A stretch of DNA of 64,000 nt from Myxococcus xanthus (lineage in GTDB: Bacteria > Myxococcota > Myxococcia > Myxococcales > Myxococcaceae), in contig NZ_FNOH01000004.1 of the NCBI RefSeq assembly GCF_900106535.1, positions 310,001 to 374,000 on the forward strand. The letters run 5' to 3'. The position numbers were made by a program, and so were the translations under genes. The notes under the pieces are model-generated. The model searched no databases. It was not told where the DNA came from and was given only the letters and a program-made list of their open reading frames with translations. Below are positions 8,154 through 13,312 of this stretch, one piece after another. The first letter of the stretch is position 1, and every line of letters starts with the position of its first letter.

Positions 8154-9107
8154 TCAGCCCAGGGGCCAATCCGGGCTGGCAATCTCCATGGGGCCGTCGC
8201 GCCAGGACGTGTAGGCGTCCTCGTCCGCGACCTGGTACGGCCTGCCGAAAGCGCGCGCGAAGTAGTCGCCCCAATGCGGCTGGGAGCCGTCGGCGTCCGT
8301 GAAGCCGTATTCGCGGGCCAGGGCCCAGGAGCTGAAGACGCGGCCGGCCTTGGCGCCCACGTTCGGATCCGCCGCGAGCGCCGCCACCGCCCGGCCCACG
8401 TAGCAGGGACTCTCCGAGGCGATGAAGTGCGGATCCTTCGCCGCGCCCTCGCGCCAGTTCGCTTCCGTGACGCCGAAGTTCTCCAGCATCTCCTCGGAGC
8501 GGAGGAAGCCGGGCGTCAGCGCCAGCGCGGTGACCTTCGTGCGGCGCAACTCCCAGGACATCCCGAAGGCGAGCCGGATGACGGACATCTTGACCAGGTC
8601 GTACCAGAGGTTGCCGCGGTAGCCGAACGAGTCCCCATCCGTGATTTCGACGATGAGCCCCCGCTCACCGCCCAGCATGAGCGGCACGGCGTGGCGGCTG
8701 GTGAGCAGGTGCGTGAAGACGGCGCGCTCGAACATCTGCTGCCCCTTCGCGGCGGACTGTTTCCAGAACGCCGGGCCGAACTCGGTGAGTCCGTCGCCGC
8801 CCCAGATGTCGTTCACCAGGATGTCGAGCCGCCCCTGCTCCCGCTGGATGCGCGCGCAAAGGGCTTCGACCTCCGATTCGACGGAATGGTCCACGCGGAC
8901 GGCGATGCCCCGGCCACCCTTGGCGTCGACGATTTCGGCGGTCTCCTCGATGGTCTCCGGACGCGAGCCCGTCGCGGGCCGTCCGCGCACGCTGCGCCCG
9001 GTGCAGTACACGGTGGCGCCCGCCTCTCCCAACATGGTGGCGATGCCACGCCCCGCGCCTCGGGTGGCTCCAGCGACCAGAGCGACGCGTCCTTCGAGTG
9101 GCTTCAT
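8154..9107 (-). CDS. Short-chain dehydrogenase/reductase (DHRS1-like)
   Basis: 317 residues. I chose ATG 9107 because AGGAG lies 8 nt upstream; a GTG at 9116 would sit inside that ribosome-binding site. The cofactor motif is GATRGAGRG near residues 13-21, followed by CTGRS, which suggests NADP(H) preference. The central block is WxDLVKMSVIRLA, with the YxxxK Tyr and Lys in NLWYDLVKM; the usual Ser lies in the TDGD region and is less clear. The substrate is unknown. It diverges from the WYL regulator at 9234 across a 45-bp dyad, so it is the likely target of that regulator. Confidence 0.8.
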   Translation of the reverse strand: MKPLEGRVALVAGATRGAGRGIATMLGEAGATVYCTGRSVRGRPATGSRPETIEETAEIVDAKGGRGIAVRVDHSVESEVEALCARIQREQGRLDILVNDIWGGDGLTEFGPAFWKQSAAKGQQMFERAVFTHLLTSRHAVPLMLGGERGLIVEITDGDSFGYRGNLWYDLVKMSVIRLAFGMSWELRRTKVTALALTPGFLRSEEMLENFGVTEANWREGAAKDPHFIASESPCYVGRAVAALAADPNVGAKAGRVFSSWALAREYGFTDADGSQPHWGDYFARAFGRPYQVADEDAYTSWRDGPMEIASPDWPLG

Positions 9108-9167
9108 GGCGGGCACTCCTCCAAGCCCACGGGCGACCGTGGACCGCAGTGGGTTCGTGTTCGCACC

Positions 9168-9212
9168 CTAGGCGGGGAATCCTGACATCCCCTGTCATGA
9201 TTCCCCGCCTAG
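9168..9212. promoter_or_regulatory. 45-bp nested inverted repeat, probable operator
   Basis: Perfect 14-bp outer arms CTAGGCGGGGAATC (9168-9181) and GATTCCCCGCCTAG (9199-9212) enclose inner arms TGACA (9183-9187) and TGTCA (9193-9197), all centred on 9190. It lies between divergent genes, 60 bp from the SDR start and 21 bp before the WYL regulator start. It cannot be a shared 3' terminator because no gene ends here. The best reading is a binding site for the adjacent regulator, controlling both genes. Confidence 0.7.
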
Positions 9213-9233
9213 ACTTCGCTTTGAGACCTGCCC

Positions 9234-10211
9234 ATGCGCGCCGACCGACTCGTCAGTTTGACGCTGCTCCTCCAGACACGCCCGAAGATGACGGCGGGCG
9301 AGCTGGCAAGGGAGCTCGAGGTCTCCGAACGGACCATCCACCGGGACCTCGACGCGCTCTCCGGCGCGGGCGTGCCCGTGTACGCCACCCGAGGCTCCGC
9401 GGGCGGCGTGGCGTTGATGGAAGGCTGGCGTACCCAACTCACGGGCTTCACCCGGGCGGAGCTGCATGCACTGGCGGCCGTGGCGGCACCGGGGGCCCTG
9501 GATGACCTGGGCCTGACGTCGGCGCTGCGTTCGGGGCTGGTGAAGATGGCGGCCTCCCTGCCCGCACTCCAGCAACCCGCGCTGGAGTACGCACGCCAGC
9601 GGCTTCACGTGGATGCGTCCTCGTGGTTTCCAGAACGCGAGGCCGTGCCTCATCTGGCGACGCTGCGCGACGCGGTCTGGCAGGACCGCCGCGTGTCCCT
9701 GACGTACCGGGACTTCGAAGGCAAGCCGAGCCGCAAGGTGGTGGACCCGTACGCGCTCGTCATCAAGGCGGACCGTTGGTACCTCGTCGCGAGCACGGGC
9801 GAGGATGAACCGCGTGTGTATCGAGGCTCGCGTGTGGACGGTGCACGGATACGCCCGGAGACCTTCATCCGGCCGGCGCGCTTCGACCTGCCCGCATTCT
9901 GGAAGGCGTGGTGCTCACGCTTCGCGGAGAAGCGCGCGCAGTACGAGGTCACGCTGCGCTTGACTCCGGAGGCGCTGGAGGCGCTGCGGAAGATTCGGCC
10001 GCGAGCGGAGGGTGCACGGCTTGATTCCGCGCCGTGCTCAGCGGATGGGCGCAAGACAGTGGTTGTGGACTTCGAGCGAGAAGCGATTGCCTTCAGTCAG
10101 CTCTGCGACGTCGGCTCGGAATTCGAGGTGCTCGCGCCGGAAGCACTGCGAACGAAGCTCCTGAAACTGGCGACGGGCATCCTCGACACGCATCGAAGTG
10201 CCACTCCTTGA
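9234..10211 (+). CDS. YafY/DeoR-type HTH regulator with WYL domain
   Basis: 325 residues. An N-terminal winged helix-turn-helix spans about 1-60 (TAGELARELEVSERTIHRDLDAL). A WYL ligand-sensing domain lies in the middle: VDPYALVIKADRWYLVAS carries the motif variant WYL itself. A C-terminal WCX-like region follows (YEVTLRLTPEAL onward). Such proteins act as transcriptional repressors or activators that sense small ligands or nucleic acids. The gene diverges from the SDR gene and its start is 21 bp from a strong dyad, consistent with autoregulation and control of the SDR. Confidence 0.85.
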   Translation: MRADRLVSLTLLLQTRPKMTAGELARELEVSERTIHRDLDALSGAGVPVYATRGSAGGVALMEGWRTQLTGFTRAELHALAAVAAPGALDDLGLTSALRSGLVKMAASLPALQQPALEYARQRLHVDASSWFPEREAVPHLATLRDAVWQDRRVSLTYRDFEGKPSRKVVDPYALVIKADRWYLVASTGEDEPRVYRGSRVDGARIRPETFIRPARFDLPAFWKAWCSRFAEKRAQYEVTLRLTPEALEALRKIRPRAEGARLDSAPCSADGRKTVVVDFEREAIAFSQLCDVGSEFEVLAPEALRTKLLKLATGILDTHRSATP

Positions 10212-10325: not shown

Positions 10326-11180
10326 ATGGAAAGCTTTACTCTCAAGAAAGCACCGCTCCAGGTATGGGTGCTGAGCTACACGCTTCTGCTACCGGGATTG
10401 GCGCTCGGGCAAACCGTGACGGCCAAAGCCGCGCAAGCTAGTTCGCGCGACTCCTCGTTTCGCGCACGGCTGAAGGCGGCAGCGCAGCTCTATGAGGAAC
10501 TTGAGTACGAGCAGGCGCTGAAGACGCTCACCCAGGCCAAGGCACTGGCCACGACGGACGACGAACGGGCAGACGCCGCGATGTACGAAGCCATCGTCCT
10601 CGCCGATCTCGGGAGACGCTCACAGTCCCTCCGCGCATTCCGCGAAGCCCTTTCACTTCAACCAGACTCCCAGCTCCCCGTCAGGGTCTCTCCCAAGGTG
10701 GCTCGGGACTTCGACGACGTACGCAAGAATCTCCAGAGCGAACGCGTGGCTTCGGCCCCCGTCGAGCCACCGCCCGCCCCTTCGCAGGACCGCCCCGTCC
10801 TCGAACCCGAGGGAACCGCGTTGGCCGTCGCTACACCATCACCTGCTGCGCCAACCCCTTCACTCATCACCAGCGCCGAGCCCGAACTCATGGCACATGA
10901 GTCAACGGGCCTCCGCATCCGTCCCCTCCCCGTGGCCTTGCTTGGCGCAGGGGTGCTCGCGGGTGGCATCGGGAGCTACCTCGGCCTGCGCTCCCGGAGC
11001 GACATCCAGAGCGCGCGAGACACCTTCAGTATCGATGAGCAGATGGGACATCTGGACGCGGCGCGCGGCAAGGCGCTCGGCGCCAACATCTTGTTCGGTG
11101 TCGCGGCGACAGCGGCGGCGGGAGCGGTCATCACCTACTTCCTGGGTAACGAAGCCACGGCGCAGCGGGAGGCGCGATGA
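10326..11180 (+). CDS. Tetratricopeptide-like exported membrane protein, function unknown
   Basis: 284 residues from ATG 10326; the frame is open upstream but the sequence before this Met does not look exported. A signal-like segment (LQVWVLSYTLLLPGLALG) is followed by a helical repeat region at about 45-130 that resembles TPRs (AAQLYEELEYEQALKTLTQA, then AMYEAIVLADLG). A Pro-rich linker follows, and one or two membrane helices (VALLGAGVLAGGIGSYLGL and ILFGVAATAAAGAVITYFL) end the protein. The layout TPR-linker-membrane pair is common in myxobacteria beside MopE-type lipoproteins. It overlaps the next gene by 4 bp, so both are made together. Confidence 0.65.
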   Translation: MESFTLKKAPLQVWVLSYTLLLPGLALGQTVTAKAAQASSRDSSFRARLKAAAQLYEELEYEQALKTLTQAKALATTDDERADAAMYEAIVLADLGRRSQSLRAFREALSLQPDSQLPVRVSPKVARDFDDVRKNLQSERVASAPVEPPPAPSQDRPVLEPEGTALAVATPSPAAPTPSLITSAEPELMAHESTGLRIRPLPVALLGAGVLAGGIGSYLGLRSRSDIQSARDTFSIDEQMGHLDAARGKALGANILFGVAATAAAGAVITYFLGNEATAQREAR

Positions 11181-13312
11181 ACCGCATTTTTCTGGCGTGC
11201 CTTGTTCTCCTGTCCGGCATGGCCTGCACCGTGCCCAGCCTCGACGAACTCCACCCATGTGACATCAATGACCTCATGGGCGACTCCGTCGACGCATTCC
11301 TGGGTGACAGGCCGACGTGCAGAGCCCTCAAAGTGTCGATCGACTACTCGGGGTTCCTTCCTGGCTGCGTGCTCGTCAGTGCCCGGGACGAAGCCAGTGG
11401 GAAAGCGTCCACCGCCGAGATTGCCGGCAAGGGCGACCGCTCAGGAGGGTCCCTCGTCGCCAGTGTGTTTGCGCCGAGCAGTTGGGGCGACTCCGTCCAA
11501 GTGGAGGCGCGTGCATTTGAGCAGAACTGCGAAGCGACACCCGTGATGACGCGTTCGATACTCGTGAGCCCCAAAACGGGGAAGACCGAGACAGTGACGC
11601 TGTCGCTCCAAGCAACGGACGCGGACGGCGACGGCTACGTCTCCGTGCTCACCGGCGGAACGGACTGCAACGACAACAACGCGAGCATCCACCCGGCTGC
11701 AACCGAGCTTTGCAACGACGTCGACGACAACTGCAACGGACAGTCGGACACGGTAGAGCTGCGCCTGGGCCAGAGCTGCACGGAGGGCGAAGGCTGTGAG
11801 GGCGTCCGCGCGTGCGGTGGGAACGGCGAGGTTCTCTGCGACATGCCGTTGGCCGTGTATGCCTACCCCGACGTAGACCAGGACAGACATGGCGACCGGA
11901 AAGCCGCTCCCGTCGCATTCTGCACCGGTATCCCGCAGGGCTATGTCACGGGTCCCGCGGATGACTGCAACGACAACAACGCCAGCATCCGGCCTGGCGC
12001 GACGGAGCTCTGCAACGGCGTCGATGACAACTGCAACGACCAGATTGACGAGACCTTCCCCGACCTCGGCACGGCGTGCACCGCAGCCGCCCAGTGCGCT
12101 GGCGTCTACGTCTGTGACGCCTCCGGCATCGCCACCACCTGCCAGCCCACGATGTTCCCCAACAACTGGTACCTGGATGGCGACGGGGATGGCTTTGGTG
12201 TTGGCACGGCCGTGTCGTCCTGCGTCCCGCCTGGCACGGACTACGCCACCACCGGTGGCGACTGCAACGACGGCAACCCGTTCACCTACCCTGGCGCGCC
12301 GGAGTTGTGCGACGCCCTGGACAACAACTGTGACGGGAATGTCGAAGGCCCCGAGGTCTGCCCAAGCGGCGGTGCCAGTTGGGCAGCCCGCTCCGTGGGC
12401 GCGAGCGATCAGGAGTGGCGCTCCATCTTCACTGGACTCCCTGGCGATGTGACTGTCTCAGGGAACCAGGGAGGGACCGCGATACTCACGCCGTCCTCAT
12501 CCACGTTTCAGACCAACGCGACCAACTGCGGCGACAGCAACAGGGGCTGGAACGCTGTCTGGGCGGACATGGCCAACCAGGGCCGCCTCTACCTCGGCTC
12601 GTCGGGAGGAAGCCTCACCTTCCTGGACAGGCCACAAAATGCCTGCACCGAGACGCACGCCATGGGACGGTGGGTGGAGGGACTCGTCGGCATTCGACAT
12701 GAAGGTGTCTTGGAGATTCATGGCGTTACATCAACCTCTGGCACCTCCGGAAACGGGCTGACCTTCATCTGGACCGGATCGGTTGGCTCAAGTGCGCTGC
12801 GATTTGGAACGACCCCTGTCTCGGCGCTATACGACGTCCACGGCCGTACCAGGTCAGCGCTATTCGCGGTGGGTGGCTTCGACATCGGGAGCAGCAGGGG
12901 GCGCATCTATCGCTTCAACCAAAACACCAGGGACTGGCAAACGGAAGCTGCGCATGACTACATCCCTGGCCTGGGCCGCCTCCGTGGAGTCTGGGTGGTG
13001 AACAATCGAACCGCATTCGCAGTGGGCGAGTTCATGGGCACGCAGAACACTGTCCTCCAATGGGACGGCAGCACGTGGAGCAGGATGCCCTTCCCCAACA
13101 CGAACAACGAGACACTGACCTCCGTCGTCGCATTCGGCGCAAAGTCCGTCTACGTCACCGCCTACAACGGTCGCATCTACCGGTACGACGGCACGCAGTG
13201 GCAAATCATCTTCGAGAACACGAACCTCCGATTCAACGACATCGCAGGCACCAGCCCCGCAGACCTCTGGGTCGCAGGAAGCAACGGACAGATTCTCCAC
13301 TGGCCTCAATAG
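11177..13312 (+). CDS. Lipoprotein with MopE-type metal-binding repeats and C-terminal propeller-like domain
   Basis: 711 residues. The signal ends in a lipobox (LLSGMAC, Cys17). Residues about 145-400 hold three MopE-like units, each with a DxDxDG-type acidic loop, then DCNDNNASIxP or a variant, then an ATELCNDVDDNCNG-type Cys pair; the third unit reads DGDGDGFG and DNNCDGN. These are predicted to bind Ca or another metal and to be disulfide-stabilised. The C-terminal ~300 residues carry repeated WxxxxxxN/GTxxx blocks typical of secreted beta-propeller-like domains. Translationally coupled to the TPR protein upstream; ends at a strong hairpin. Confidence 0.75.
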   Translation: MNRIFLACLVLLSGMACTVPSLDELHPCDINDLMGDSVDAFLGDRPTCRALKVSIDYSGFLPGCVLVSARDEASGKASTAEIAGKGDRSGGSLVASVFAPSSWGDSVQVEARAFEQNCEATPVMTRSILVSPKTGKTETVTLSLQATDADGDGYVSVLTGGTDCNDNNASIHPAATELCNDVDDNCNGQSDTVELRLGQSCTEGEGCEGVRACGGNGEVLCDMPLAVYAYPDVDQDRHGDRKAAPVAFCTGIPQGYVTGPADDCNDNNASIRPGATELCNGVDDNCNDQIDETFPDLGTACTAAAQCAGVYVCDASGIATTCQPTMFPNNWYLDGDGDGFGVGTAVSSCVPPGTDYATTGGDCNDGNPFTYPGAPELCDALDNNCDGNVEGPEVCPSGGASWAARSVGASDQEWRSIFTGLPGDVTVSGNQGGTAILTPSSSTFQTNATNCGDSNRGWNAVWADMANQGRLYLGSSGGSLTFLDRPQNACTETHAMGRWVEGLVGIRHEGVLEIHGVTSTSGTSGNGLTFIWTGSVGSSALRFGTTPVSALYDVHGRTRSALFAVGGFDIGSSRGRIYRFNQNTRDWQTEAAHDYIPGLGRLRGVWVVNNRTAFAVGEFMGTQNTVLQWDGSTWSRMPFPNTNNETLTSVVAFGAKSVYVTAYNGRIYRYDGTQWQIIFENTNLRFNDIAGTSPADLWVAGSNGQILHWPQ

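Follow-up and report, generated by a model that had tools for sequence, protein, structure and literature searches.

A conserved dyad between divergent WYL regulator and NapW-like reductase genes of Myxococcus xanthus, very probably the operator of the regulator

Described WYL regulators and the Myxococcus xanthus locus

WYL regulators are abundant (more than 15,000 according to the DriD preprint, PMC12340889) and few have known sites. DriD, an activator of Caulobacter crescentus that has single-stranded DNA as its ligand, has one of its sites in the interval that separates driD from a target operon transcribed divergently. The reported consensus is ATACGAC-X7-GTCGTAT with contacted guanines; the site overlaps the -35 region at a constant distance from the -10 box, and DriD is described as activating the divergent operon and not its own gene (PMC12340889). 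When we aligned the three DriD promoters printed in PMC12340889, the -10 box fell at +19 and a G at -14. BrxR and CapW are phage-defence WYL repressors of HTH-WYL-WCX architecture. BrxR sites lie upstream of brxR itself and are inverted repeats, the arms being 10 or 11 bp long and 5 bp apart (PMC9122589, PMC9122601), and Acinetobacter BrxR has an SRQQ contact motif (residues 37-40). Two mycobacterial WYL activators are the heterodimeric PafBC and SiwR, which controls DinB-like genes through a 19-bp imperfect palindrome between the -35 and -10 elements and which loses binding to its promoter motif upon R38A-R42A substitution (PMC10693628). Among SDR enzymes, NapW and SfmO1 are hemiaminal reductases; tetrahydroisoquinoline antibiotics alkylate guanine in DNA, and their hemiaminal is the group that NapW and related enzymes reduce (PMC8648761).

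The window analysed here, a 64,000-nucleotide stretch of M. xanthus DNA (contig NZ_FNOH01000004.1), carries the gene of a 325-residue WYL regulator (9234..10211, plus strand) and, divergent from it, the gene of a 317-residue SDR oxidoreductase, SDR1 (8154..9107, minus strand). The 126-bp gap between the two start codons (ATG 9107 on the minus strand and ATG 9234), that is the entire interval 9108-9233, holds a dyad that itself spans 45 bp (9168..9212). Its 20-nucleotide arms (9168-9187 and 9193-9212) lie 5 nucleotides apart and are 95% complementary, with 19 of 20 positions paired. The original prediction described two nested repeats about a common centre at 9190, and coordinates and pairing agree with this: 14 perfect outer pairs (9168-9181 with 9199-9212) and five perfect inner pairs (TGACA with TGTCA) are separated by a single mismatch (C9182/T9198) and enclose the spacer TCCCC (9188-9192). 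Its placement of the dyad between divergent WYL and SDR genes was likewise correct, as was its view that such a structure is far beyond chance. No further dyad with at least 17 of 20 positions paired was found in the window (20-bp arms, gaps of 0-12, the dyad's own registers aside), and 40 Markov-shuffled versions of the window together contained seven dyads with at least 17 pairs, one with at least 18 and none with at least 19. We rejected a repeat element because a 39-bp form of the dyad has a single copy in the 9.26-Mb genome when up to three mismatches are allowed, and a terminator because the dyad is located between divergent gene starts. Elsewhere in the window, 11177-13312 encodes a 711-residue protein with three matches to a MopE-type putative metal-binding motif, and the protein that precedes it (10329-11180) matches TPR weakly.

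The WYL protein passes the Pfam cut-offs for HTH_11 (residues 9-57; 56.7 bits, cut-off 25), WYL (139-205; 68.8 bits, cut-off 21.8) and WCX (236-316; 37.9 bits, cut-off 23.9). In a Foldseek search with the predicted model (mean pLDDT 85.4), all 30 rows with E at or below 0.001 were chains of DriD, PafBC, CapW or BrxR. Their TM-scores to the model were 0.23-0.40, and thus the domains match better than their arrangement. DriD chains had the lowest E-values but superimposed loosely over the whole chain (TM-score about 0.35, rmsd about 16). VIA Z scores were 11.9 for PafBC, 11.3 for the DriD C-domain and 10.3 for DriD, with the winged helices of NiaR and BirA close behind, and when a profile of the HTH only was compared with solved structures DriD was not among the matches listed.

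Set beside DriD, the M. xanthus locus has in common the GAC-N7-GTC core, a site over the -35 position at a fixed distance from the -10 box, both helix arginines, and one site between the regulator gene and a divergent target, here a presumed one. It differs in the base before GAC (T, and hence TGAC rather than CGAC half-sites), in the helix residue (H36 rather than Glu) and by one base in the -10 distance (+20 rather than +19). The promoter of driD is reportedly unregulated by DriD, whereas the two M. xanthus promoters have their -10 boxes equally far from the site. The statement in the original prediction that WYL operators are poorly defined went too far, given that DriD and BrxR sites are published and that the present site has the DriD core at nearly the DriD spacing. 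A search of 31 genomes with the printed DriD site gave one match (L307 in our numbering of loci), which had three mismatches, and the profile detected no WYL gene there. DriD relatives were obtained instead by a WYL family search of those genomes, and one of them (L378), aligned to DriD, has the helix VGRRTAERMRD with arginines at the places of R33 and R37. The R-x3-R pair of the window regulator has the spacing of the SiwR pair (R38, R42), and the two systems differ in the location of the site relative to the promoter and in the genes controlled. BrxR and CapW share the domain architecture, and BrxR operators, like the dyad, are inverted repeats with a 5-bp spacer. However, both proteins showed 12-16% identity in the fold match, their neighbours are defence genes and not an SDR gene, and the SRQQ motif of BrxR is absent from the window helix, VSERTIHRDLDAL.

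Conservation of the core and position of the -10 boxes

A protein search of 96 family genomes gave 47 orthologous WYL loci with proteins 58-100% identical, and comparison of these loci showed TGACA-N5-TGTCA without a mismatch ahead of the WYL gene in all 47. In a wider listing of 80 loci, the closest named relative was M. xanthus AM003 (WYL protein 98% identical). In the window the TGACA-N5-TGTCA core occupies 9183..9197, with GAC at 9184-9186 and GTC at 9194-9196 separated by N7, and it is also present in other phyla. At 45 of the orthologous loci the neighbour of the WYL gene is an SDR gene, although in one of these (L010, genome G067) only a remnant, residues 263-316, is left. The core was retained there and also by the WYL gene at L008 (genome G063), where the SDR gene is absent; at L030 a contig end keeps the SDR side from view. 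One WYL match (L023, genome G061) contains a TGA. No locus was found in which the gene pair had been kept and the dyad lost, and both the conservation in 47 of 47 loci and the persistence of the core at L008 and L010 support the reading of the dyad as a WYL operator. The adjacent WYL regulator very probably binds DNA at this dyad.

The expectation that the same arms would precede the orthologues was borne out for the core and not for the outer arms, which vary among relatives beyond a frequent GAATC-like flank. As the outer arms differ between relatives, we dropped the entire 45 bp as the operator. When 145 genomes from the order were searched for a longer pattern with GGGGAATC flanks (up to three mismatches), 19 of them, all in the same genus, had one site each.

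Putative -10 boxes were located by scoring T1, A2 and T6 of TANNNT (maximum 3) at every distance from the dyad centre. Across the 47 loci each direction had one clear peak, at +20, with a mean of 2.77 towards the SDR gene (next offset 1.21) and of 2.51 towards the WYL gene (next offset 1.11). The predicted boxes in the window, both at +20, are TAGGGT for the SDR gene (9165..9170, minus strand) and TAGACT for the WYL gene (9210..9215, plus strand). The CTAG ends of the outer arms are therefore the starts of two divergent -10 boxes, and this, together with their variability, leaves a reading of the outer arms as a second binding element without support. Counted from either promoter, the centre of the dyad is at about -32, the place of a -35 element. 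Neither promoter has a recognisable -35 element, in that the intergenic sequence has no TTGACA-like hexamer 16-18 bp from either -10 box.

The spacing extends beyond the family. TGAC-N7-GTCA was present within 160 bp in 40 of 65 loci outside the family (L108-L173 without L112), and removal of eight near-duplicates (seven of Lentzea type and L156) left 32 loci for scoring. In each direction these had a single clear peak, which was at +19 on the side facing the WYL gene (1.53; next 1.11) and at +20 on the opposite side (2.06; next 1.28). When 14 SDR promoters, a set that has three loci in common with the 32, were aligned on the site, the single clear -10 peak was at +19 (1.82; next 1.14). The 5-bp spacer of the operator is apparently non-random: the target strand is often purine-rich (GAGGT, GAGGA and GGAGG types) and G at +1 has 1.35 bits in the 14 SDR promoters, and thus the site is asymmetric at its centre.

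Reductase partners, further sites and the wider WYL family

The 9.26-Mb genome has three TGACA-N5-TGTCA sites: the present dyad, one at the start of a WYL paralogue on contig C9, and one (C10:320713) upstream of a second SDR gene, SDR2, the product of which is 57% identical to SDR1. Of 27 genomes from the genus, 11 carry SDR2, ten of them with the exact upstream site and the other (L318) with a one-base variant. Both the genome that lost SDR1 (G063) and that with the SDR1 remnant (G067) retain SDR2 and its site, and this presumably is why regulator and operator outlive SDR1. The 27 genomes together hold 139 TGACA-N5-TGTCA sites versus 12 of the reversed pattern (sums of forward columns). Two genomes are site-rich, G060 with 10 and G067 with 14 sites versus 2-8 in the other 25, and so have either further targets or chance sites. 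The C9 paralogue (G000:C9:89883; L079, L091) is a 248-residue open frame that has its site a few bases before the start codon and adjoins a divergent alpha/beta hydrolase gene. Its helix, like that of the window regulator, has H at position 36, and therefore both regulators may share sites. An adjacent WYL pair elsewhere in the genome (G000:C6:47779 and C6:48768; L088, L089) appears PafBC-like by eye. The M. xanthus WYL pair MXAN_1359/1360 is reported to be LexA-dependent (PMC12288472).

Both reductases match NF006159 (the NF006159/PRK08303 subfamily; 459.9 bits for SDR1, cut-off 364). The nearest solved relative of both is NapW (7bsx), with E-values of 5.3e-87 for SDR1 (next 2e-34) and 6.2e-151 for SDR2 (next 5.6e-32). 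Given that the SDRs fall within the NapW group, they likely serve to protect the cell from hemiaminal antibiotics that alkylate DNA or from comparable reactive compounds, the substrate being deduced from this kinship. Where they differ from NapW and SfmO1 is that the present SDR adjoins a WYL regulator; in the NapW paper (PMC8648761) the word 'regulator' appears once, in the reference list. It is possible, though we doubt it, that the SDR is instead a general metabolic reductase and that the regulator senses a metabolite and not genotoxic stress, a reading compatible with the other explanations considered below. In its favour, only two of the nicotinamide-side residues of NapW listed in PMC8648761 (Asp165 and Arg176) are kept in SDR1, which has Asp for Glu113, Gly for Asn177 and Phe for Trp213 (mapped by our own offset, chain number minus 20). 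However, among solved structures none comes near NapW as a relative of either SDR, the homologues assayed in PMC8648761, most of which were active, included one from Myxococcales, and the hand-picked partners of related WYL genes described below include detoxification-type families.

NapW-like SDRs were found in 11 of the 19 genomes searched, and in seven of the 11 the gene is beside a WYL gene. The pairs are divergent in Sorangium, Truepera and Paenibacillus and convergent in several Actinomycetota. Ten of the 11 SDR-bearing genomes have at least one SDR gene with GAC-N7-GTC within 160 bp upstream. No such site lies within 160 bp upstream of the lone Lentzea SDR (G150) or of the second copies L349, L350 and L352; the L351 site is about 220 bp from its SDR, beyond the distance scored, and L353 is a second reading of the L348 SDR. 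Five convergent pairs could be read on both sides (G149, G151, G153, G163 and L165). In four of these five Actinomycetota pairs GAC-N7-GTC precedes the SDR gene and none was seen before the WYL gene, and in G153 a site precedes each. Viewed from the WYL gene, GAC-N7-GTC is within 150 bp of the start at 58 of 80 loci, comprising all 19 from Myxococcota and 39 of the 61 from elsewhere, the remaining 22 having none in that interval.

A broader sample of 130 WYL-domain genes, part of the matches in 19 genomes, contained 120 with a usable HTH, or 119 after removal of one duplicate. We scanned 64 trinucleotides at 21 spacings (1344 patterns) with expectations taken from shuffles. GAC-N7-GTC was seen at 43 of the 119 genes versus 10.7 expected (z 8.3) and ranked second of the 1344 patterns, whereas other GAC spacings gave 2-23 and GTC-N7-GAC gave 7. 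ATG-N17-CAT stood above it by z (9.4; 22 seen, 3.0 expected) but was not taken as an operator because, in our reading, one recurring form near -100 is the start of a divergent gene on the opposite strand; its other occurrences are unexplained by that reading. Since 37 of the 119 are related to the window protein (at least 36% over 250 residues), we took the other 82 as a subset. In their -120 to -1 regions GAC-N7-GTC occurred at 21 genes and other GAC spacings at 0-9. By raw counts in the subset, for which no expectation was computed, CGG-N11-CCG (30) and GGA-N9-TCC (25) exceeded GAC-N7-GTC (21), which equalled GCG-N13-CGC (21); the first two patterns can be flanks of CGGAC-N7-GTCCG.

R33 and R37 of the window regulator are invariant in alignments A1, A2 and A4, and we propose H36 as the specificity residue. 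The set used to examine this residue had 37 symmetric sites within 120 bp, and in all 36 for which residue 36 was assignable it agreed with the base before GAC: Arg with G (16/16), Tyr or His with T (17/17), Leu with C (2/2) and Thr with A (1/1). The sole symmetric site without an assigned residue (L296) combines the helix RRTVERMR with CGAC, and DriD likewise combines Glu with CGAC. With asymmetric half-sites included, Arg had 33 G and one C; Tyr 29 T, two C and one G; His six T; Leu five C and one T; and Thr two A. Exceptions outside the scored set are L063, L064, L083 (Leu) and L084 (Ile), all with TGAC half-sites. Within 120 bp most genes lack a symmetric site: the 45 genes of the Arg class have 16 such sites and the 37 of the Tyr/His class have 17. 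The proteins form 11 clusters without contradiction at 50% identity but only four at 40%, and therefore shared descent accounts for part of the residue-base correlation.

The partners of ten TGAC-class WYL genes, hand-picked from 29 loci as an illustration and not a survey, are GyrI-like proteins (three), a glyoxalase, a GST, a NIPSNAP protein, a PNPOx protein, an alpha/beta hydrolase, a DinB match below the cut-off and one protein without a match. Frames that looked non-coding were omitted, as were apparently coding frames at L068, L115, L121, L129, L140, L169 and L172. We tentatively advance GAC-N7-GTC as an operator syntax that HTH_11-type WYL regulators share across the family, together with a one-residue code and a TGAC-class chemical-defence regulon. 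In this joint proposal HTH residue 36 would set the base before GAC (Arg-G, Tyr/His-T, Glu-C, Leu-C or T, Thr-A), and the TGAC-class regulon would be a widespread set of -35-less promoters dependent on a WYL activator that senses DNA damage by alkylating antibiotics, with NapW-type reductases, GyrI-like proteins and similar detoxifying genes as targets. Neither a general WYL operator rule nor a WYL-NapW link was stated among the open-literature matches listed, which is weak evidence of absence as two of the listings covered 20 of 556 and 25 of 5,511 matches and the 2022 and 2024 DriD papers lay outside the scope of that search.

Activation or repression at the two promoters

The explanation of the locus that we favour, and consider probable, is that a WYL dimer on the dyad acts as an activator that replaces the missing -35 element of both divergent promoters, with both binding and activation deduced from comparison with described systems. 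The homodimer would place one recognition helix on each GAC half-site, R33 and R37 reading GAC and H36 the preceding T, and would cover the place of the -35 element in both promoters, with the centre near -32. A ligand would switch the WYL domain, upon which the dimer would, most likely as DriD does, recruit RNA polymerase in place of a -35 element. The switched dimer would turn on SDR1, the distant SDR2 and perhaps the WYL gene itself. Candidates for the switch are single-stranded DNA and the antibiotic itself. The WYL gene itself may escape this control, since DriD reportedly does not regulate its own promoter. The main text of an M. xanthus mitomycin C proteome study names another WYL pair, MXAN_1359/1360, and no SDR, a point against this explanation. 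Further points against it are the 22 loci outside Myxococcota with no nearby GAC-N7-GTC, the SDR genes that lack the site, the two sites in G153 and the loose whole-chain match to DriD.

The same regulator could instead occupy the same operator as a ligand-released repressor that blocks sigma factor and polymerase at both promoters, a classical divergent autorepressor in the manner of BrxR and CapW. We consider this unlikely, although one site that spans two divergent promoters would suit a repressor, conservation of the site would be expected in this case also, the 10-11-bp arms and 5-bp spacer of BrxR sites resemble the dyad, and the PafBC paper mentions WYL repressors tied to immune systems. 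However, with no -35-like hexamer at 16-18 bp the two promoters look activator-dependent. Moreover, a repressor needs no fixed distance to the -10 box, whereas here it varies by no more than 1 bp between phyla and agrees with that of the promoters activated by DriD. Hence, the fixed -10 distance, the absent -35 element and the DriD precedent lead us to prefer activation. Hardly credible is a third explanation, in which the WYL gene is a bystander and the dyad serves another regulator of the SDR gene or is a structural, terminator or repeat element, for although a hairpin could form, the divergent starts exclude a terminator, the genome has a single copy, the core accompanies WYL genes in many different gene neighbourhoods and is shared by the DriD site as printed.

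A common core at a constant distance from the -10 box, with a residue from which the neighbouring base can be predicted, would make operators and regulons readable from sequence for many WYL regulators. The proposed regulon would link the WYL family, several members of which are DNA-damage regulators that sense single-stranded DNA, to kin of a reductase that destroys DNA-alkylating antibiotics. Such a WYL-NapW-type regulon would be directly testable in Myxococcus xanthus.
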